Below are positions 577 through 18,888 of a stretch of DNA of 23,500 bases, in pieces. The notes beneath the pieces are model-generated. The model was not told the DNA's origin. It searched no databases and saw nothing but the letters and a program-made list of their open reading frames with translations. The position numbers and the translations under genes are program-made. This DNA comes from a virus. The DNA is taken from the IMG/VR virus record IMGVR_UViG_3300033144_003863, positions 1 through 23,500 of that record, one strand, 5' to 3'. Each line of letters begins with the position of its first letter. The first letter of the stretch is position 1.

Positions 577-2325
577 CTATACGGTGATCTCCGCGTCGGC
601 GGTGTAGTGGATCGTGATAAGGTCGCTGCCTTGGATTGCAGTAACCGAGGCATGGAGCAGGTACACACTGGTATCGCAAAGCCCTTGCGTCGTGACCGCG
701 CCCCCATCAGCGTTGTCGGTCACTTCTCGCCACTGTGCATTATTGGCTGACGGGTTGTAGTAGACCATGCTCGGCGTTGCGCGTAGTGGGACGCGGAAGA
801 CCACCTGGACTCCGACTTGTCGATTTACTCCGGTCCAAGCCCCGCTGACTACCGCTCCCGCTTCACCCTTGTTTTGGCCCGGTTCCGTGGCTTGCGGAAA
901 AGTTTTCTGGAAGAAGCGTTGGCAAGCGTCGTATTCGTTTTGGAACGTCGGGCGTGAGTGAGGCGCAAGGTCGGCCCCTTCATTTACCCAGATGTCGCCC
1001 AAGTAGAACTTATCGGTTGAGGCTAGGAGGTCCGTATCATCGCACCAGATGAATAGCGCGAGATTTTGGGTCGAAGCCGTGTCGATGGCAATGTTGGTGA
1101 TCGTTTTTTCTGCCCACGATGTTCCGGTCAAGAACTCTGCGCCGCCGCCTTCGTATGTCCATGCCCCCGTAAGCGAGGGCAGCACGGTTTCCGCTGCCCA
1201 GGCTGCATCAGCAACGGGGTCGGCCAATGCATCTGCACTTCCTTGCCATGAAATGATTTGCGCTCGAAGGTTCCGAACACCGGAGGATGCCTTGTGCTTG
1301 AAGCGAACAGAGCAAACACGATCATTCCCAGCAGAAAGAAGAGAGGCCGACTGAGCAGCGTCGAGCGGGAAGATGAGCCCGATTTTCTTGCTGTTGATTG
1401 CCGAGTTGATCTCAAAACAGTGGCTTGCCCCATCGGGAGCATCGGCGGTGTTCTGTACAACTGTGCAGGCGACATCAGTATCGCTCGCTACCAGAACGTG
1501 ATCGAGGCAAAAGCCAAAGTCAGCGCTCGGGAAAGTTGAGCCCGAGTTACAGGTAACGCGCTGGTTGATCTGCGCGCTCCCGTTGATGATGAGATTCGGC
1601 TTGACGGTGGTTGCCTGCGAAGCGCTCATCAGCAGCCAGGTGTTCGTCACCTTGCAGTAGTAAATCTCCAGCGTGTCATCGGTAAAGTAGATGTCGCCAG
1701 CAGCGGGAGTGGCGCTCTTTGCCGCGTTGGTTCCGTGGAAGACCCTCAGATTGTTTCGCGCCAGGAGTGCGGTGGCGAAGTTCACCCATGCTGTCCCGAA
1801 GGCAGAATGGGGAATCGAAACCAGATCAACGTCCGTGGGATTGACCGCTGTGATTTCACCCAGCGCATCCCATTGGAGAATCTTGCTGGCTCGGGTTGCG
1901 AGGTCTGGCATTGCCAAGCCGGTTGGGTCGATCTCGCCCTGGTCGGCTTTGACCGATCGGGTCGAACTGTCGTCTGTATCGAGCAGGAGCATGACGAGCC
2001 GGTCGAGGGCTTCCTCAATCGCGCTCGGGAGAATCGTTCCCTGGTTTTCCAAGTCGATCTCTTGGGTTTGCGGCATGGCACGCACCACAACCCAATTGGA
2101 ACTGGCAGGAAGGAGGTTGAGATTGGTGAGCGTCCCTCCGCTTCCGGTGCCGCCGCTCAGTGTGTAATCCACTCCGAGAACCATCGGCGTTGTGACGCCA
2201 GCCACCTCCTGTTCAATTACCAGATCTGTTGGATCGTAGAACGGAATGATGACGGCCATGTCCGTGTCGGCGGCTTGGTTACTGGTGATGAACACCTGCC
2301 GGGTGGTTTTCTCTGTGATCGTCAT
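577..2325 (-). CDS. Tail fibre protein (T7 gp17-type N-terminus)
   Basis: This is a 582-residue receptor-contacting fibre. Residues 28-125 match the T7 tail-fibre N-terminal domain that anchors the fibre to the tail: an IPFYDPTDLVI segment, a VDYTLSGG turn, a VVVRAMPQTQEIDL segment, and an IEEALDRLVML helix. Residues 247-256 (INGSAQINQR) begin a carbohydrate-binding-like region common in phage fibres. FQNEYDACQRFFQKTF at 461-476 is the usual lead-in to a C-terminal beta module, probably the receptor-binding tip. The start ATG overlaps the stop of the upstream ejection-protein gene in an ATGA junction and has a strong GGAGG site 7 bases upstream. The order, right after the gp16-like gene, is that of T7-type tail clusters. 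The trimeric state and the receptor are not visible in sequence. Confidence 0.92.
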   Translation of the reverse strand: MTITEKTTRQVFITSNQAADTDMAVIIPFYDPTDLVIEQEVAGVTTPMVLGVDYTLSGGTGSGGTLTNLNLLPASSNWVVVRAMPQTQEIDLENQGTILPSAIEEALDRLVMLLLDTDDSSTRSVKADQGEIDPTGLAMPDLATRASKILQWDALGEITAVNPTDVDLVSIPHSAFGTAWVNFATALLARNNLRVFHGTNAAKSATPAAGDIYFTDDTLEIYYCKVTNTWLLMSASQATTVKPNLIINGSAQINQRVTCNSGSTFPSADFGFCLDHVLVASDTDVACTVVQNTADAPDGASHCFEINSAINSKKIGLIFPLDAAQSASLLSAGNDRVCSVRFKHKASSGVRNLRAQIISWQGSADALADPVADAAWAAETVLPSLTGAWTYEGGGAEFLTGTSWAEKTITNIAIDTASTQNLALFIWCDDTDLLASTDKFYLGDIWVNEGADLAPHSRPTFQNEYDACQRFFQKTFPQATEPGQNKGEAGAVVSGAWTGVNRQVGVQVVFRVPLRATPSMVYYNPSANNAQWREVTDNADGGAVTTQGLCDTSVYLLHASVTAIQGSDLITIHYTADAEITV

Positions 2326-5300
2326 GCCAACCCCTCCGCTTGCGCTGTAAGGTACTTCACCATTCCCGGCGCGCCGCCCCTGTCACTCGCTCCCTTGAGC
2401 GCAGCAAGGTTCTGGGGGTTGAACCCAGCGCGGAGCCGTTGCCTGATCTGTGGATGGAACTTGAAGCGATTGCCGTGGAGGAACTCCATGCGCTCTTCAA
2501 GGAAGTCGAGCATTCCATCGGTGCCTTCGTCCTCGAATTTCATCTCCATGAAGGTGTAATCGCCACGCTTCAAGTTTTCCGTGTTTCGCCGTTTCGGATC
2601 AACCCGGCGCTCTTGCTTGCGCCGCTCAAACTTGGCTTGGCGCTCCTTCTTGATCTCCCGGCGCTCGCGGAGAAACCGTCGGTTCAGGGGCTTGACCGCG
2701 ATGGACTCCAAAACCTGTGTGAGATAAAAGAGTGAGTACGGAGTCGAGAGCTTCACCGCAGCCCGAATCTCGCTCTCGCGGATCTGGCTGCTGTTGCCGC
2801 GCGCTGCCTTCGTCGCGCCGCTGAATGCCTTACCAAATGAGCGCAACGTCCCGCGCGTCGGCCCCATCAGAACATCGGAGAAATCCTTTTCGGTCCACTG
2901 GTAGCGGTTGTGACCACCGAAGATCAGTTGGCCCGGAGCCAGCGCCCCCCGTGACGCCAGCCCCAGGCTTTGGTCGATGTCTGGGATCATTCCGAGAAGG
3001 CCAGAACGATCAATCGCAGACAGCAACAGCTCACGGGTGTCCCCAACCCCGTACCCGTATTGTTCGGCTTTGAACTTCGCCACCAGCATTCCCATTCCGA
3101 TAGCGAGCAAGGCTCCGTTCATGTTGGCCCTGTCCCGCCATTGCAGGCCGGAGAGGGCGACGAACTTCGTTGCCGCCATGCCGAAGCGCTTGAACTGGCC
3201 CACGAATCCTCCCACCTGCGTATTGATCCACAGTGAGACATCGCCAGGGCCAGGGGTAATGATCGTGGCGTCTACCTGCTTGCCCAGCGCGAGCCGGAAA
3301 GCGTTTTGGGCTTCGAGGTCCGTCCACTTCGGGGTATTGAGGATCGTCAGGCCGCGCTCGACTGGCTGCTTTGCCAGTTCCGCGTCGATCCGCTTCACGA
3401 TTCCGAAGTCGCCAAAGCCCCAGGCTGCAAGCTGCTCGATCATCTCGGGTGAGGCGTCGCCGGCTGCCCAGGCTCGGATGTGGTGGGCGAAGTTCTGGCC
3501 CGAGTAGATCGCTGAGAACTGCTTGAGCGTGTCGTTCCAGACCGACAGGCCACTCAGGTACGAAAAGCGGTCAGAAACCGATCTCATGCCCTGTTCTATG
3601 TTCGTCATGCGCCCGTAGTCGGTCCCGAGGTCCATGATATTCGATGCGCGCCGGTTGAGGATCGTTTCCATCCCAACCCCAGCCCAGACGTTTTCCACCC
3701 GTAGCGCGGCCTTGGTCGCCTCGGGCAAGCCCATGTAGGCGAGCTGGGTCCGAAAGGTGTTCTCGAGTCCGTTCATTGCAACTATGCGTCCCAGATCAGG
3801 AATCGAGGACACCATGAAGCCCCCGCCCATCGTCCAGTAATTGAACTGCTTGAGTACCCTCATGCTGACATAGGCAGCGTGTTCCGGGTTTGCAGGGACA
3901 GCGTATTGGCCCCGGAGAATGTCCCGCACGGCGGCGATGTCTCGAATCCCTTGCCGCGCCTTCCGCTCGTACCTCAGGATCTTCTCGGACTCTTGGCCCT
4001 CTTCGGTCATGCGCTCCACACGGCGCTTGATCTTCTCATCGAGGTTCCGAAGCGCTGCGGTCGCGTTGGGATCGCCGACCCATTGCCGCCGGCCAGCGTT
4101 TCCGATCTCTTTGCCTTCTGTGGTTCGGACCATCAGTTGAGGCTCGGTGGATTTGAACTTCCGGTGGTTGGCCTCACCCATGATGCGCGTCTCTGCGGCC
4201 AGCCGAGTTTCCGTCCCCTTCTTCGCATGAAAGGTCTTCTCGTCCACGTTCCACCAGCCAGGGCCGTTGAGTTCATCGTCGCCCTCCAACTTCTTGTCGA
4301 GCGCGTTGCGGACGTTCGATTGCTGCTCACCCTTCGAAGCCAGGTCCTTGAGGGTGTTTCCTCCGGCTTTTATCTGGCCGGTTTTGGCGCTCTTGAAGGC
4401 CGGGAGAACGTGCCCCCCATGCGTGTCTTGGAGACCCTTCGGGAACGGTGTGAACGAGAGCCCTTCGATCTCGAAGCGCCCGAAGTTCTTGGCGATCTCG
4501 ATGTCGGCTACGGCAGAGCGGTGGATGTGGTGAGTGATCCGCAAGATGTCTGGCTCCAACCATCGCTCGATGGAAACATCCATGACGTCCAGCGTTCGCG
4601 GTCGGACCATTCCAGGCAATCGGTTCTGGTCAAGATCCGGCTTGGAGAAGACTTCGGAGAAGACCGGGATGTGAGTCTCGGGCACCCGACCAGACGGAGT
4701 AGCGAGGATGTTGTCTCGCGCTTGCTTTGCGGCGAGGATGAAGGTGTCGATGTCATCCATGCCGTAGTAATCGGTCCAGTCCTTCACCACCTGTTCGACC
4801 CACAGTCTCTCTTCTTCCGGGCGCGAGAGTAGTTTCTTCAGGTAGATCCGTTTGACATGCGAGTTCCCAGTAACGCGGCCCTCCGGTGAGAAAACCTGTG
4901 TGGTTGGCTCGCCGGTCGCGGGATCGGTTCGGTCGATCCGATTCATCAACCCCACTTCCTCCAGGGCATCGGCAACCTTGTCGTCATAACGCCGGAACGC
5001 CTTGACGGAATTCATAATGTCGGGATCGGAAGAACCGGGCTCGCCCGCCTTGTCTCGTCTGGCAGCGTGAGTGACTTCCATGCGAAACGCCTGTTCGGTG
5101 AGTTCCCCTTCGGGTGGTCCCTTCGTCATGTTTTTGAGCGCGGCGATGTTTGCCTCGATGCCTTGGAATCGCATCGGCTTCTTGCCCGAGAGCCTTCGCC
5201 GGTAGTTGAGGTAATCGTTTTGGTAGGTCTGGACGAGTTCACCCAGATCCTTATTCCAAAGCCGGATTCCAGACTGAGCGCTGCGAGGATCGGAGATGCC

Positions 5301-8207
5301 GTCTTTGAACTTCTCCTTGCGAAGCCCAATGTCGATCATCTTCGGCATGACCTGTCGCACTTGTAGTTCCGGGTTTGTCGCCGCCCTGGTCGCGGGAAAC
5401 CACTCTTTCACGAGATGTTCAAAGCCGAGCGCGCCCACAATCTCTTCGCTCGTCGCTTCAACGTCGGGGTTGTAGGTTCCTTCGGTGTCCATCCTCTCTG
5501 CTTTGGCAGAGACACCCACGCGCCCGTCTGTGTGGTAGCCACCGGGAACCGTGTCGCCTTCGTTCAGGATGTCTTCATTCGTGACGATCTTGCACGGAGA
5601 ACTACAGGTGATCGAGCGCTCCAGCGTGTAAGCGGTCTTCCCGTCGATCCCATTGAGCCGCCCAAGGGAAACTGCCTTCGGGACTTTGCCTTTTGGGAAC
5701 TTCACGAATTCATATTCTTTTCCGAGTAGTTGAACGTCCCCGCGCTTGGATGTCTTTACGGCAATGATTTCCACGGGTAGTTCGTGAATCAACATCCCTT
5801 CCATCGCATTGCCGACGGAATCTACTTGTGCATCAAAAGTCGCTGATCGACCGCTTTGCATTCCCTCCAGGGCTCGGACATGGGAGAGACTTTCTTCCCC
5901 TACAAAAGCCACCACCTTCATTTCCGCTTTCACATCGGGGGTTGCCCGTTTCGGATTGGTGATTTCCACATACAACCGAGGGCGGCGGAACTCCAGGGCG
6001 TTCGAGTTGGCGTGGGTTCTACCCTTGATGACTGTGATTACCTGCTGTTGGGTTTTATTTGTTGATAGACCACCGAGTTTCCCACGGATGTTCATAGAGA
6101 TAGTTTCGCCTTGGCCCTTAGAACGTTTCCCAGCTACTTCGCGGGTGACGAATTCTGCGCGGTCTACATCCCAGAAGCCGGAAGCGCGTTGCATCCTGCG
6201 GGCCTTGAGCATTAGGCCAGGTACTTCGTGGAGCTTTACCTTGATGTCTGGCTTGCCTTGCCCAAGCAATGCGCTGCTATCGAGTACGTCGATCTCTCGT
6301 TCAGTCACCAGATTGAAATGGAATGCCCCTCCGGTCTTTACTTCACCGCTCGCCGGGTTTTTCCACGCGGTCATAAACTTGCCGGGGAACCGTTGCTTGA
6401 GAGTCTGGATCGCATCCAGATCCTTGATGCCTGTCGGGACATCGGAGATGATTTTCTCCGCTCCGATCTCACTCAGGATGCGATCCAGTTCCGTGACCGG
6501 CATGAACGTCGTAGTGTGAAGCGGCTCGCCGTTTCGTGTTCCCGTGCTGGCTGTCCACACCCAGGGATCAACTCCCTTCGGCGGGTTGCGAATGCCGAGG
6601 ATCGGGCGCTGTGGATTAACCACCGTGCCTTCGGCTGCGCTCATCAGGAACGAGGTCGAGATGAATTCCCCGGCTTCTAGATCCTCAAGAGCGTGCAGCT
6701 CTTTGTTCGCAACTTTGAATTCCGCAAGTGCCGCTTCGTGGGGTTCGTTTTCCTTAGCGATGCGAGCATCGTCATCGAATTTTCCCGCCTCAATCGCGTC
6801 GGCCAGGTCTTTCTTCGCGCCCGCGATTACCTCCGGTCCCATCTCGGCAAGCTCAGCTTCTTTGAGTCGCTTTCTCAATACCTTGATATTGTCGCCAACC
6901 GCTTTGCGCTTCTTGGCACGGGCGTTGTTTGCGTCGATTACAGCGATCCCGGCGACTCGTACTCGCGCCTCGGCTTTGTCGAGAAGACCCGTTCCCGTGC
7001 GCTCTTCCTTCGTTGAGCCCTTTCGGAAAAGCGTCTTCGGCGGGACATCCACCATGCCTTTGAGTTCAACCGCGTGGGCCTCGGGTCCGAATTTCTTGAG
7101 GACCGTTTTTTCTGCGGCACTCACATTCGGGCGGTTGCGTCCCTTGAACATCTGAGTCCTATGCTTAAACGCATCGCTGCGCGAGAAGAATTCCTGTGTG
7201 CGAGGATCAACAAATCCTTGTTCCCAGTCGTCCATGTTCTTCGGGAGCTTCCCGCCTTTGGCCTCGAACAGATCCAAGTGGCTGCGCTCTCCAACCCACA
7301 CCTCTCCGGTTTTCTTGTTCCGGTTAGCGACGAGCATTTGCCCAGAGAAGTCGCTCAGCTTTTCGCCTGCGGGTGTCACTTCGGTTTGTGGAACGAAACT
7401 GCCGTCATCGGCTTGGACAAGTTCATGCTTGACCGCGCCGCTTCGCAGATCCGTTTTCGCAATCGGCTTCTCTTCTCCGAACAGATCGTAAGGTCGCGCC
7501 TCTCGTGGGTAGGCATTACCGAAGTCGGCTTCCAAATCCTTGAGGACGCGAGCGCGCATGATTGCGGGGACGGCGGTAGCGGTTCCGATCATCGCGCCCA
7601 GGAGTGTACCCGCAGTGATGTTCAGGCCAGCTTGCTCTGCCGTCCGAAAGTCTTGGAGGGGATTCAGTATTCCTTCCGCTTGTGCGTTCCCGATGAGTCC
7701 CGCTTGTGCGCCGCGCTTGACTTGGTGCATTCCGAGTCGAAACGGCTTTCGGAATAGGCTTGCAGTTCGACCAATCGCACCCGCACCTACCGGCAGGAGA
7801 TTGACCAGATCGAAACCGCCGGCCAGGAGCATTGCTCCGAGTGCCTTGCCGCCTGAGTCCATGACCATCTGAAGGTTTCGCTGCTCGTTCTCTGCGCGTC
7901 GTAGCGTGATGTCGAAGTCCATCTTGTTGCTGACGCCGATCAGCAGCTCGGGGAAGTCCTCGAACAGAGTACCTTCAATCAAATCTTGGTCGAACGGATT
8001 GAAGTCGGGTTGGGGGGGTGCGCCCGAGAGCGGAAACTTCATCCGTTCTCGAACGGCACCCACGGTGTTCTCCAGGGCGAATGCCGCTGGGATCACCTGC
8101 CCCCAGAAGTCGGGTTCTTCTCGCCAGATCCTTCGCTGAATGTCTTTCGACACTTCCGTTTGCGAAAAGTCGTGGTAGCTCTCCAGGCGGGGTTTGCTAA
8201 GCGGCAT
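2322..8207 (-). CDS. Large internal virion/DNA ejection protein (gp16-like), 1961 aa
   Basis: Last and largest of three consecutive ejection-protein genes. It probably leaves the head first and helps build the channel across the host envelope. Hydrophobic Gly/Ala-rich stretches lie at residues 119-146 and 195-217. The C-terminal part has the block usual in podoviral gp16-like proteins: VGQFKRFGMAATKF then GLQWRD (about 1669-1692), followed by the hydrophobic NGALLAIGMGMLVAKF (about 1697-1712). A very basic segment follows at about 1843-1875. T7 gp16 is about 1318 residues, so this protein is some 640 longer. I see no lytic transglycosylase motif in it, although T7 gp16 carries one at its N-terminus. 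Most of residues 230-1100 cannot be assigned. The start ATG overlaps the gp15-like stop by one base (TGATG), so translation is probably coupled. Confidence 0.87.
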   Translation of the reverse strand: MPLSKPRLESYHDFSQTEVSKDIQRRIWREEPDFWGQVIPAAFALENTVGAVRERMKFPLSGAPPQPDFNPFDQDLIEGTLFEDFPELLIGVSNKMDFDITLRRAENEQRNLQMVMDSGGKALGAMLLAGGFDLVNLLPVGAGAIGRTASLFRKPFRLGMHQVKRGAQAGLIGNAQAEGILNPLQDFRTAEQAGLNITAGTLLGAMIGTATAVPAIMRARVLKDLEADFGNAYPREARPYDLFGEEKPIAKTDLRSGAVKHELVQADDGSFVPQTEVTPAGEKLSDFSGQMLVANRNKKTGEVWVGERSHLDLFEAKGGKLPKNMDDWEQGFVDPRTQEFFSRSDAFKHRTQMFKGRNRPNVSAAEKTVLKKFGPEAHAVELKGMVDVPPKTLFRKGSTKEERTGTGLLDKAEARVRVAGIAVIDANNARAKKRKAVGDNIKVLRKRLKEAELAEMGPEVIAGAKKDLADAIEAGKFDDDARIAKENEPHEAALAEFKVANKELHALEDLEAGEFISTSFLMSAAEGTVVNPQRPILGIRNPPKGVDPWVWTASTGTRNGEPLHTTTFMPVTELDRILSEIGAEKIISDVPTGIKDLDAIQTLKQRFPGKFMTAWKNPASGEVKTGGAFHFNLVTEREIDVLDSSALLGQGKPDIKVKLHEVPGLMLKARRMQRASGFWDVDRAEFVTREVAGKRSKGQGETISMNIRGKLGGLSTNKTQQQVITVIKGRTHANSNALEFRRPRLYVEITNPKRATPDVKAEMKVVAFVGEESLSHVRALEGMQSGRSATFDAQVDSVGNAMEGMLIHELPVEIIAVKTSKRGDVQLLGKEYEFVKFPKGKVPKAVSLGRLNGIDGKTAYTLERSITCSSPCKIVTNEDILNEGDTVPGGYHTDGRVGVSAKAERMDTEGTYNPDVEATSEEIVGALGFEHLVKEWFPATRAATNPELQVRQVMPKMIDIGLRKEKFKDGISDPRSAQSGIRLWNKDLGELVQTYQNDYLNYRRRLSGKKPMRFQGIEANIAALKNMTKGPPEGELTEQAFRMEVTHAARRDKAGEPGSSDPDIMNSVKAFRRYDDKVADALEEVGLMNRIDRTDPATGEPTTQVFSPEGRVTGNSHVKRIYLKKLLSRPEEERLWVEQVVKDWTDYYGMDDIDTFILAAKQARDNILATPSGRVPETHIPVFSEVFSKPDLDQNRLPGMVRPRTLDVMDVSIERWLEPDILRITHHIHRSAVADIEIAKNFGRFEIEGLSFTPFPKGLQDTHGGHVLPAFKSAKTGQIKAGGNTLKDLASKGEQQSNVRNALDKKLEGDDELNGPGWWNVDEKTFHAKKGTETRLAAETRIMGEANHRKFKSTEPQLMVRTTEGKEIGNAGRRQWVGDPNATAALRNLDEKIKRRVERMTEEGQESEKILRYERKARQGIRDIAAVRDILRGQYAVPANPEHAAYVSMRVLKQFNYWTMGGGFMVSSIPDLGRIVAMNGLENTFRTQLAYMGLPEATKAALRVENVWAGVGMETILNRRASNIMDLGTDYGRMTNIEQGMRSVSDRFSYLSGLSVWNDTLKQFSAIYSGQNFAHHIRAWAAGDASPEMIEQLAAWGFGDFGIVKRIDAELAKQPVERGLTILNTPKWTDLEAQNAFRLALGKQVDATIITPGPGDVSLWINTQVGGFVGQFKRFGMAATKFVALSGLQWRDRANMNGALLAIGMGMLVAKFKAEQYGYGVGDTRELLLSAIDRSGLLGMIPDIDQSLGLASRGALAPGQLIFGGHNRYQWTEKDFSDVLMGPTRGTLRSFGKAFSGATKAARGNSSQIRESEIRAAVKLSTPYSLFYLTQVLESIAVKPLNRRFLRERREIKKERQAKFERRKQERRVDPKRRNTENLKRGDYTFMEMKFEDEGTDGMLDFLEERMEFLHGNRFKFHPQIRQRLRAGFNPQNLAALKGASDRGGAPGMVKYLTAQAEGLA

Positions 8208-16350: not shown

Positions 16351-17226
16351 TTACGCTGCCGCCAGATCTTCGTCGGCCTTGATCCGCACGATCCCGTTCG
16401 GGTCCATGCGTGTTGCGCCGATTCTCATGTCGTAGAAGACCTGAGTGCTGTACTTCTTCGTCGGCAACTCGGAAATCCGGCCACTCGGGTTGATCCCGAT
16501 TGCCAGCTTGATCGAGTTTTTCTGCCAACAGATGACGTCCCGGATGTTTCCCGAGTCGATGGGAGCCCGCTCGCCACGGATGAACGTGAAGCCGAGGAAT
16601 GTATCGACCTCACCCCTGACGAGTGCCTTGACCGCGTTGTAATCCGTGCTTCGGATGGTGTCTTCTCCGAGCATGGATTCGAGGTTGTCGGCAGACAGAT
16701 AGAGGAATCTGTCGTTTTCGGGAACTTCCCGTTGATCGAGCAACTTCTTCGCGCTGGTGATTTTCGCCACGGACAGGTTGGTCGTGCCAACGGCCACTTC
16801 GCGGTCAGCCGGGAAACCTTCATCGGTCGTACCCGTCTGGCCGGTCTTTGCTGTCCCTGTCATTGCTTCCAGGATGATGTCATCGGTGGTCCGTCCTGCC
16901 GCCATCGCAAAGGCTTGCGAATAGGCGTTCGTCGGGTCCGAAAGCATCTGCACGTTGTCGTCGCGGTCGAGCAGGTCGGCGATGTCCCACGATTCCAAGG
17001 TCACCATTCGTCTCAGGTGAGGCGTATCGGTGTATTCAGTATCGCCATGCCGGCTGGTGCGCTTGCTCATCGTGACTGCATCGAGCTGATTGTAATAGGC
17101 GCGGTCGCCTACCACCTTGGGATCTACGTCCACGCTTCCGCGAAGACGAGACATTCCTTGCTGTTGGAGTTGTGTGATTCCGTCCGTGAATTGCTGGACG
17201 AAATGTACGTCTACAGTTTGGGACAT
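16351..17226 (-). CDS. Major capsid protein (HK97-fold, Bbp17-type podoviral), 291 aa
   Basis: Main shell protein. The N-terminus (SQTVDVHFVQQFTDGITQLQQQGMSRLRG) is the usual amphipathic arm of this capsid group. It is followed by the YYNQLDAVTMSKRTSRHGDTEYTDTP region, whose charged loop corresponds to the E-loop, and by HLRRMVTLESWDIADLLDRDD. The second half has the YLSADNLESMLG helix, then VDTFLGFTFIRG and IGATRMDPNGIVRI, which match the usual P-domain/A-domain ending. The ATG has a very strong GGAGGGG site, the best in the operon, fitting the highest-demand product. The gene sits after the scaffold and one small gene, and lies in the only loosely spaced part of the block. A long antisense frame over it is a shadow. 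Confidence 0.9.
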   Translation of the reverse strand: MSQTVDVHFVQQFTDGITQLQQQGMSRLRGSVDVDPKVVGDRAYYNQLDAVTMSKRTSRHGDTEYTDTPHLRRMVTLESWDIADLLDRDDNVQMLSDPTNAYSQAFAMAAGRTTDDIILEAMTGTAKTGQTGTTDEGFPADREVAVGTTNLSVAKITSAKKLLDQREVPENDRFLYLSADNLESMLGEDTIRSTDYNAVKALVRGEVDTFLGFTFIRGERAPIDSGNIRDVICWQKNSIKLAIGINPSGRISELPTKKYSTQVFYDMRIGATRMDPNGIVRIKADEDLAAA

Positions 17227-17262
17227 AATCCCCTCCGTTCATCGTTTCAAATGAAGTCGAAG

Positions 17263-17284
17263 GGGTTGCCCGGAAACCGGACCC
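17263..17284 (-). other. RNA hairpin H2 in the capsid leader with GCA bulge
   Basis: On the transcribed strand the RNA reads GGGU CCGG UUU CCGG GCA ACCC. Eight base pairs form (ACCC/GGGU and CCGG/CCGG) with a three-base GCA bulge on the 3' arm. It lies 37 bases upstream of the capsid ATG and has no U-tract, so it is not a factor-independent terminator. It has the same bulged helix as H1 (17331-17355). This is a sequence observation; folding was not computed. Confidence 0.55.
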
Positions 17285-17330
17285 TCTCTTGCCTGTGCGT
17301 CGGCCTGCCGTCCCTACTTTCGGGCGAGCA

Positions 17331-17355
17331 GTTGGACCCTTACGGGTTGCCCAAC
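17331..17355 (-). other. RNA hairpin H1 in the capsid leader with GCA bulge and GUAA loop
   Basis: On the transcribed strand the RNA reads GUUGG GCA ACCC GUAA GGGU CCAAC: nine base pairs, a three-base GCA bulge on the 5' arm, and a GUAA (GNRA-type) tetraloop. It lies 4 bases after the stop of the 116-aa gene. No U-tract follows. The paired core (GG-GCA-ACCC facing GGGUCC) is shared with H2. Confidence 0.6.
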
Positions 17356-17359
17356 GGTA

Positions 17360-17710
17360 TTAAGTTTTGCGTGACGCCTTTTTCTTGGACGCTTTTGTCT
17401 TGCGCGTCACAGTAGTTGGTTCGGAAGGGATTGCGGATTGGGGTTCGAGGATTTCTTCTGGGAGAGGTCGTTCGATACGGTAGGCGGCTTCGGCATAGGC
17501 CAAGAGCCCTTTGGTTCGGATACTCGGCATTGCCTGGACGATTGATTCGACGATTGCAAGCCTGTAATCACCGTCCTCATCATTGTCTTCTTCGAAGACC
17601 CAGTTGAGAATGGGCGTGATATGCCCAAAGAGAAATGCGGGATCAGGGATTTGTTTCCCCTGAAGGCAAATTCTCGTTGCCGTCGTCAACGCTTTTTCAC
17701 GCTTGTTCAT
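17360..17710 (-). CDS. Hypothetical small protein between scaffold and capsid, 116 aa
   Basis: The start ATG overlaps the scaffold stop (ATGA), so it is probably translated by coupling to the scaffold. Residues about 1-85 look helical, with an acidic centre (NWVFEEDNDEDGDYRLAIVE). The C-terminal 20 residues are a Lys/Arg/Thr/Ser tail ending KTKASKKKASRKT. A basic tail like this suggests contact with DNA or with the acidic scaffold. I do not recognise a family. Given its place it may take part in head assembly, but that is inference only. Confidence 0.7.
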   Translation of the reverse strand: MNKREKALTTATRICLQGKQIPDPAFLFGHITPILNWVFEEDNDEDGDYRLAIVESIVQAMPSIRTKGLLAYAEAAYRIERPLPEEILEPQSAIPSEPTTVTRKTKASKKKASRKT

Positions 17711-18609
17711 GCCTGTTCGCCGCCTCCCATCGCGTACAGATCCATTCTCCGCTGGACCGCTGCATCATGTCCAGGGTGGCCCTTGTCTCCAAGTTGCTTC
17801 TGGAAAGTCTCATCATTTTCCAGTTTTGTCAACTCTGCCTTGGCTTCGTCCTTCGTGAGCGTCATTCGCTTGCGGGAACCCATGCCGTGAATGTCGTGTT
17901 CCGAGTAGTCCTCGCCGGCTCGCGCCATCGCCCTCACGAACGCTGGGCTCTGGCCGATCATCGTCCCATCCTTGAGTTCGAGTAGGGCAAAATCCTCCAT
18001 CGTGTCGCCGAAGATTTCCTGCATTGTGAGATTCGCCAAGCGGACCTTGGCGTCATACGCCGAGCCCCACTCTTGCTTCAGAACGCCAGCCGACTCCTTC
18101 TTGGTGTTCTGCATCCGTTCAATCGTGGACGTCTGGATGCCGTGTTGCCGCTCGATCTCGAATCCGAGTACGCCCGCGACTTGCCCTGGCGTGAGCTTCA
18201 ATTCGTGCATCTTGGCAACCATCGCGTTTTGCGCTTCGCCATCCCAGGGGAGCCCTTCGGGGATTTCCAACCCTGACGCAACGTCGTATTCGCCTGCGGT
18301 CTTGGGCACGCCGATGTGTTCGTAATAGGCGTCGATCTGATCTTGTGGGGCGTCATCGTTGGGGACGCGGATTCCCTGCGCGGAAAAGGATTTCTCGAGT
18401 TCTATGTACGAGGTGGCGAGCGCCGTTTCGTCCGCGAACTTTTGCAACCCTGGATGACCGGAAACCTCGCCGCCGAGCCTTTGGGAGAAGTGCGTATTGT
18501 CTCCACCACCCTCGCCGCCCTTTCCACCATCGCCGCCGCTTCCGCCGCCATCGCCTCCAGCGCTTCCCTGACCACCTTCGCCCTGTCCATCTCCGTCACC
18601 GTCGCCCAT
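17707..18609 (-). CDS. Scaffolding protein, 300 aa
   Basis: Assembly chaperone that guides the capsid shell and then leaves. The N-terminal 40 residues are almost only Gly, Asp, Glu, Ser and Gln, a disordered acidic leader. After that comes a mostly helical, charged body with the layout of podoviral scaffolds: GHPGLQKFADETALATSYIELEK near 52-74, a GVPKTAGEYDV segment, and a Lys/Glu-rich C-terminal helix (LTKDEAKAELTKLEND). The C-terminal part is usually where a scaffold binds the capsid. AAAGGA lies 7 bases before ATG 18609. It sits three bases after the Bbp19-like gene and overlaps the next gene by four bases. No protease motif is seen, so this is not a fused maturation protease. Confidence 0.85.
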   Translation of the reverse strand: MGDGDGDGQGEGGQGSAGGDGGGSGGDGGKGGEGGGDNTHFSQRLGGEVSGHPGLQKFADETALATSYIELEKSFSAQGIRVPNDDAPQDQIDAYYEHIGVPKTAGEYDVASGLEIPEGLPWDGEAQNAMVAKMHELKLTPGQVAGVLGFEIERQHGIQTSTIERMQNTKKESAGVLKQEWGSAYDAKVRLANLTMQEIFGDTMEDFALLELKDGTMIGQSPAFVRAMARAGEDYSEHDIHGMGSRKRMTLTKDEAKAELTKLENDETFQKQLGDKGHPGHDAAVQRRMDLYAMGGGEQA

Positions 18610-18612
18610 GAT

Positions 18613-18888
18613 TTAGTCCTTTCCCTGGTCTTTGAATTTGTCGATGATTTTCTCGATCTGCTCATCGGTCATTCTCAGAACCGCTTTGATGTGAAGTATC
18701 GCGTGTCTACGGCCAGTGAGATTTGCCGTGACATATGGATTCTCATTGAACAAATCCTTGCTCCACCCACAATGGTTGATGAGGTCGTTCAGGACGAACT
18801 GACCATCTTCGCTCTCGAACACGTTGACGTATGCGTCCCGTCGCCGCCATGTCCACCACTTGAACTTCTTGGGAGAGAGGAAAGCCAT
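18613..18888 (-). CDS. Bbp19-like small phage protein, 91 aa
   Basis: A short protein between portal and scaffold. The pattern VFESEDGQFVLNDLINHCGW (about 23-42), then a short linker with NPY, then TGRRHAILHIKAVLRM matches the small 'Bbp19-like' family found in podoviruses near the portal and scaffold genes. The role of this family is not established, to my knowledge. The start ATG has an overlapping GGAAGGA site 3 bases upstream. No signal peptide is seen, and the N-terminus is aromatic and basic (KKFKWWTWRRR), which may bind nucleic acid. A 24-base junction that includes the portal stop separates it from the portal frame. Confidence 0.72.
   Translation of the reverse strand: MAFLSPKKFKWWTWRRRDAYVNVFESEDGQFVLNDLINHCGWSKDLFNENPYVTANLTGRRHAILHIKAVLRMTDEQIEKIIDKFKDQGKD

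Follow-up and report, generated by a model that had tools for sequence, protein, structure and literature searches.

Why should the leader of one capsid gene carry the same short bulged helix twice, with its two strands in opposite order? This question is raised by the window (the whole stretch of DNA that was analysed, 23,500 nucleotides), in which the leader of the major capsid gene is flanked by the stop codon of a 116-aa ORF on one side and by the capsid start at 17226 on the other. The leader contains the hairpins H1, M1, M2 and H2 as well as a helix in which CCCCUUCG pairs with CGGAGGGG, the Shine-Dalgarno region (Table 1). As a whole it has a fold z-score of -2.83, and equally good folding was found in two out of 200 shuffles. 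The original prediction had described two hairpins in these 133 bases, both built from GGGCAACCC and GGGTCC, one with a GTAA and the other with a TTT loop. Sequence, coordinates and strand are as claimed, and the helix occurs in both orders with these loops. H1 is present but larger than the six pairs assigned to it, comprising nine (GUUGG/CCAAC plus ACCC/GGGU). The capsid protein itself scores 244.3 bits against PF19821, for which the Pfam gathering score used as cut-off is 25, and among named phages it comes closest, at about 43% identity, to pelagiphages such as HTVC203P and HTVC010P.

Table 1. Position and basis of the features in and around the capsid leader.
Feature	Position	Strand	Remarks
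Window			23.5-kb virus record; minus-strand genes for terminase, portal, scaffold, capsid and tail proteins
Whole element, structured leader of the major capsid gene	17227..17359	-	133 nt; alike in the close relatives L091-L093
H1	17331..17355	-	bulged helix in the order A-loop-B (GG-GCA-A... / ...U-CC), GUAA loop; sequence GTTGGGCAACCCGTAAGGGTCCAAC (17355-17331)
M1	17305..17331	-	hairpin CUGC-U-CG-CCC-GAAAGUA-GGG-A-CG-GCAG, first C shared with the end of H1; alignment A5 of the GC-rich subgroup (9 sequences)
M2	17291..17304	-	hairpin GCC-GACGCACA-GGC; window fold and related loops in A5, weakly supported
H2	17263..17284	-	bulged helix of H1 permuted, order B-loop-A, UUU loop; sequence GGGTCCGGTTTCCGGGCAACCC (17284-17263)
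Anti-Shine-Dalgarno strand	17258..17265	-	CCCCUUCG; first three C common to the outer stem of H2 (mutually exclusive); compensatory changes in A5
Shine-Dalgarno strand	17230..17237	-	CGGAGGGG, includes the Shine-Dalgarno sequence of the capsid gene; window sequence, fold and A5
Major capsid protein gene	16351..17226	-	PF19821; phrog_3437
116-aa ORF	17360..17710	-	lysine-rich C-terminus; poorly conserved; directly upstream of the leader
Scaffold / capsid assembly protein gene	17707..18609	-	phrog_3742, phrog_458

Looking at the window alone, the pair is mildly unusual: the same nine plus six letters in both orientations, forming a helix of equal size, turned up in 113 out of 3000 dinucleotide shuffles. 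The strength of the case rests on the comparison with relatives. Capsid loci were sampled by protein searches of IMG/VR (the best 80 loci of each of three alignment or profile scans) and from named phages. The 251 loci with a capsid match gave 239 leaders, as 12 were dropped for want of a start codon or of sufficient upstream sequence, and reduction at 85% identity left 109 non-redundant leaders. With fixed positions, 80 of these possess H1, 60 possess H2 and 50 possess both, compared to 1.09, 0.84 and 0.02 when the same leaders are dinucleotide-shuffled; in 100 rounds there was never more than one shuffled leader with both. Under looser rules, applied to 88 redundant leaders, the numbers are 75, 74 and 68 versus 3.2, 7.0 and 0.35 in shuffles. 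The shuffle control suggested with the original prediction speaks weakly against chance for the window alone and clearly for its relatives, which lie far above shuffled sequences. We are practically certain that the capsid-leader element is real.

In total 19 of the 109 non-redundant leaders have neither hairpin at the final threshold, including the close relatives L091 and L093. The H1 of L091 reads AUAA facing U and was counted under the broader letters of the looser rules, and L093 lacks, judged by eye, the Y base in both hairpins. In ten longer records a leader match of at least seven pairs was found in nine and none in G003, with scattered matches elsewhere in all ten. Around the capsid locus the motif matches peak at the capsid leader and at the scaffold start, and no other peak was accepted there. 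A small excess about 2 kb upstream was dismissed, since nine of its 18 matches belong to two recurrent look-alike stretches (by their position probably portal coding) and the rest are scattered. Extra H1 hairpins upstream of the usual one are seen in L013, L014, L029, L032 and L073; two or more H1 hairpins occur in seven of the 109 leaders.

Comparing the helices reveals which part of them is kept. The core of the module is GG-RYA-R facing Y-CC. If no letters are prescribed, the most frequent 4x1 internal loops of the leaders include ACAA/C, GTAG/T and ATAA/C; TAGC/G and GGTA/C, which also rank among the top leader loops, are GTAG/T shifted in register by one base. In 211 control stretches none of these five is found among the eight most frequent loops. 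If just the middle Y-A is prescribed, the fourth base of the loop and the base opposite are G/U in 57, A/C in 51, A/U in 11 and other combinations in 37 out of 156 helices, and never G/C, whereas in 605 control helices each of the 16 combinations is found 25 to 57 times. G.U and A+.C are isosteric wobble pairs, so that what is conserved appears to be the geometry and not Watson-Crick pairing. Both hairpins of the window are of the A-U form, with a GCA bulge. A kept GCA bulge, as originally expected, is thus not what the family conserves; the kept feature is R-Y-A beside a G.U, A.C or A-U pair.

The pairing was also examined by anchoring one strand and permuting the partners. All six H1 pairs are formed in 34 of 155 stretches, compared to a null mean of 2.2 and a null maximum of 8 in 1000 permutations; taken singly, four of the six H1 pairs exceed the null maximum and two do not. 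For H2, five of six size classes lie above the null maximum when all pairs have to be formed, and the class with an inner stem of 2 and a loop of 5 equals it; many single H2 pairs are not above the null maximum. The terminal loops vary while the internal loop is kept. Since the bulge module, the wobble pair and both permuted forms recur with covariation across the capsid family, the claim that the two helices are selected is borne out.

A search with DNA only, independent of the capsid proteins, leads back to the same place. The 17-base H1 pattern GGAYAACCGNAAGGCCC gave at least 121 matches in at least 120 loci of IMG/VR. Among the 121 matches listed, 101 lie 20-260 nt before a PF19821-type capsid gene, one lies at another distance, four are at contig ends and 15 have no PF19821-type capsid gene. 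Seven of these 15 are followed within 260 nt by the start of an ORF of at least 150 aa, namely five capsids of other families, one portal and one protein without match. The five capsids are assigned to PF20911/phrog_212 (L319), phrog_1357 (L342) and phrog_267 (L373, L291, L338). Because L291 resembles L338, they represent about four independent cases, and L373, which scores weakly against PF19821, is not wholly unrelated to that family. The H1 hairpin of L291 and L338 has five pairs, which is under the usual threshold. L319 has in addition an H2 of five pairs at -67 to -45, and no H2 is found in the usual place in L342, L373, L291 and L338. The best matches between these five leaders and those of the PF19821-type family (top five each) span just the 13-22-nt hairpin stretch.

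The H2 pattern precedes a PF19821-type capsid gene in 69 out of 106 matches; two are at contig ends and 35 have no such gene. For these 35 the scan covered ORFs of at least 150 aa starting within 260 nt, and none of the seven ORFs scanned is a capsid gene of another family. In seven isolates with PF20911 or phrog_1357 capsids (epsilon15, BPP-1, BcepC6B, Mel-JY33, Nsp-JY18, Pascal and ctQWt234) the gap between the capsid gene and the gene before it measures 3-28 nt; the motif is missing from six of them, and ctQWt234 has two matches within the gene before the capsid gene. Capsids of the L373 and L291 types have no match among the named phages. Upstream of the H1 hairpin and capsid gene of L291 and L338 there is, by eye, a strong hairpin followed by a T run, resembling a terminator. 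L397 (G017:C1:3740) shows an H1-like hairpin between a 523-aa ORF, by its position perhaps a portal, and a large ORF that looks SPP1 gp7/MuF-like by eye.

The second peak of the positional histogram, about 0.9-1.15 kb upstream, coincides with the start of the scaffold coding sequence. We sampled 91 scaffold starts, 77 of them non-redundant, and searched their first 57 nt for the module in either order (H1 or H2). It is present in 28 of the 77 non-redundant relatives, as compared to a mean of 0.65 and a maximum of 3 in 200 rounds of synonymous-codon shuffling and to 11 out of 1113 other CDS windows. The opposite strand of the scaffold starts has no module match. The 28 cases can be sorted into a small number of sequence types that recur, and so do not count as independent events. 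The scaffold start of the window has no module copy, and none is apparent by eye in L091 and L092.

Among eleven pelagiphage isolates, ten carry H1 at +11 to +38 of the annotated scaffold gene, the exception being Baldr, which has no module copy anywhere tested. Their capsid leaders possess H1 in 8/11 and H2 in 0/11 at the threshold used. In four other phages tested alongside there is no scaffold copy, and the leader has H1 and H2 in ct3Et533 and H2 in ct8d5349. In the scaffold copy of the isolates one stem pair is A-U, U-A or G-C, its 3' partner exchanging the encoded residue between V, E and A. In this small alignment it is the sole covarying pair, and one further pair is broken in 5/8. A second type of scaffold copy (A9, seven sequences) likewise has one covarying pair, with a score reached by 23 out of 500 shuffles.

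Near the capsid start the module meets a second structure. The minimum-energy fold of the leader omits the outer GGGU/ACCC stem of H2, and the C residues of this stem pair with the Shine-Dalgarno region; hence the drawn form of H2 and the sequestration of the Shine-Dalgarno region compete with each other. Compensatory changes are seen in the Shine-Dalgarno helix of the GC-rich subgroup (A5), and the 5' strand of this helix overlaps the outer stem of H2. Forcing H2 costs 6.1 kcal/mol of ensemble energy in the window, 3.8 in L092, 1.5 in L093 and 9.2 in L120, and shifts the accessibility of the Shine-Dalgarno sequence from 0.00 to 0.12, from 0.02 to 0.34, from 0.06 to 0.52 and from 0.00 to 0.11, respectively, so in the window it is freed only slightly. 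These model folds suggest two mutually exclusive states of the leader. The RNA-structure switch mentioned in the original prediction gains support as a possibility from the overlap of the H2 outer stem with the anti-Shine-Dalgarno strand. In the AT-rich marine relatives no Shine-Dalgarno helix is evident by eye. As only the GC-rich subgroup shows the helix, a switch cannot be a general step, and it is the module itself which represents the common denominator. In addition, H2 ends 26-49 nt before the start codon in the 60 leaders that have it, mostly beyond the ribosome footprint, and a translational effect there is not obvious.

What, then, could the module be for? The computations give the module and its permuted pair together with their conservation and covariation; they locate the module at capsid and at scaffold genes and show, for the subgroup, the Shine-Dalgarno helix. 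Going by these sequence comparisons, the reading we prefer, with a probability of roughly 0.55, is that of an undescribed cis-regulatory RNA which tunes capsid and scaffold translation via a shared RNA-binding factor. The capsid leader would be a cis-acting regulatory RNA presenting one recognition module twice, in opposite strand order. A trans-acting factor, most likely a protein, would read this module and set capsid translation from the leader. A shared factor is the simplest reading because the internal loop is kept at up to three places and in two strand orders while the terminal loops vary. In many relatives the factor might also set scaffold translation, via the copy which starts within or next to the ribosome footprint, just past the start codon, and binding there would be expected to block initiation. 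In the subgroup of the window, the second copy is in competition with the strand masking the Shine-Dalgarno sequence, so that a bound factor would presumably open the ribosome site of the capsid gene.

More tentatively, a single factor, widely conserved and probably belonging to the host, may read the module with its R-Y-A bulge by an isosteric G.U/A.C pair, and phages of different capsid families may use this module to mark and balance their capsid and scaffold mRNAs. We regard this as possible rather than probable. If it holds, the leaders that precede PF20911-, phrog_1357- and phrog_267-type capsids, dissimilar in other respects, would represent convergent uses. The 116-aa ORF was considered as a universal binder and rejected, since in ct3Et533, which has both hairpins, no ORF is annotated at this position.

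Other explanations have to be weighed against the preferred reading of a cis-regulatory RNA with a shared factor. That the pair is a composition-driven repeat without function, or a result of coding constraint, is suggested by the equivalent pairs in shuffles of the window alone, but in our reading the shuffle, permutation and synonymous-codon controls refute it for the family and leave it next to no chance. A more serious candidate is an autogenous operator, at which the free scaffold or capsid protein of the phage itself would bind the module and shut off its own translation and that of its partner. The same site is indeed found at both genes, in the capsid leader and in 28 of the 77 at the scaffold start, and the autoregulation of the P22 scaffold and the coat repression of MS2-type phages are precedents. 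The original guess of a capsid- or scaffold-binding element fits the scaffold copy as far as regulation of these genes is concerned. As to the binder, H1 also precedes capsid genes of other families (PF20911, phrog_1357, phrog_267), a net negative charge is carried by all nine scaffolds inspected, by the capsid and scaffold proteins of the window and by the HTVC010P capsid protein, and no RNA-binding family is among the Pfam and PHROG matches of the capsid and scaffold proteins. Weighing somewhat against this binder, these points make us consider an autogenous operator unlikely.

The hairpins could also stabilise or process the mRNA, serving as nuclease sites or barriers that leave the capsid message with a long-lived 5' end. 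Such a role would suit the strong folds, which directly precede the gene of the usually most abundant product, and the copies at two genes of one gene cluster. We give it a small chance: a sequence-specific bulge and an isosteric wobble pair are more than a mere barrier would require, and cleavage within the coding region of the scaffold would presumably destroy the scaffold message. Action at the level of transcription, on RNA polymerase, has a similarly small chance in our view. The model for it is HK022 put RNA, a cis-acting phage RNA with anti-pausing or antitermination activity, which would here stand ahead of the most expressed gene. According to PMC9378689, putRNA measures about 70 nt and comprises two stem-loops and a bulged loop, and the leader, if cis-acting as we propose, resembles it in having two bulged hairpins, which lie within about 100 nt. 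Yet put lies downstream of early promoters, whereas the copies found here are in mid-operon and inside the scaffold coding start; put is not known to be linked to capsid genes, and passages of that source do not present its stems as one module in two permuted copies. The coding strand of 16900-18700 shows no terminator-like site and a single promoter-like one (17773-17744), which lies about 390 nt upstream of the leader and is at chance level.

The operator of MS2-type RNA phages is a single hairpin whose conserved tetraloop and one bulged A are recognised by a coat dimer. It shares with the module the form of a short bulged phage hairpin, and the role of translational operator is that of MS2. 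It differs in that the terminal loops of the module vary while its internal loop is kept. MS2-like as well as kink-turn readings of the helix were dropped after comparison with the consensus. P22 scaffolding protein regulates its own synthesis post-transcriptionally and is not known to use an RNA site of this kind; a module common to capsid and scaffold is what we see here. Phages need the right ratio of coat to scaffold, and to our knowledge little is known about its setting at the RNA level in tailed phages. Here a single short RNA module is found at the capsid gene, and in many members at that of the scaffold too, across a large group including HTVC010P and related SAR11 phages, and several phages with other capsid types carry it as well. 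It offers a concrete site for testing, with copies in cultured isolates.

With Rfam 15 no match was obtained for the window, for 20 relatives at the gathering threshold, for window positions 17150-17450 at E<=5 and for six relatives at E<=1. This may be partly because tests which accept standard pairs only score non-Watson-Crick covariation as broken. The glutamine riboswitches described in PMC9004378 are structured control RNAs of marine phages whose bacterial hosts are streamlined; they share with the leader that they are structured phage RNA and are a different RNA, the leader having no Rfam match. In the literature searched, including passages of PMC2864571, PMC8632094, PMC11109978, PMC9004378 and PMC9378689, the element is not described, though a prior mention is possible. 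Its sequence gives it the look of a so far undescribed RNA site that controls the building of the shell.

Besides the module, M1 is strongly conserved in the nine GC-rich sequences of A5, with L120 as the deviant. Its sequence GCUCGCCCGAAAGYAGGGNCGG is strongly kept in this subgroup, and matches to the pattern were four viral contigs, all of them close relatives already found. The sole match in genome_contigs, in a Lachnospiraceae MAG, was put down to chance, as there is no adjoining capsid or scaffold match and it lies at an apparent ksgA gene (by eye). M2 is absent from the consensus-fold prediction of A5. Between portal and scaffold the window encodes a Bbp19-like protein (PF25181, unknown function; 18613-18888, minus strand), which has relatives at the same place in the aligned named phages. 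A protein of 1961 aa (2322-8207, minus strand) finds its best matches, within residues 1376-1834, in internal virion proteins with endolysin domain.
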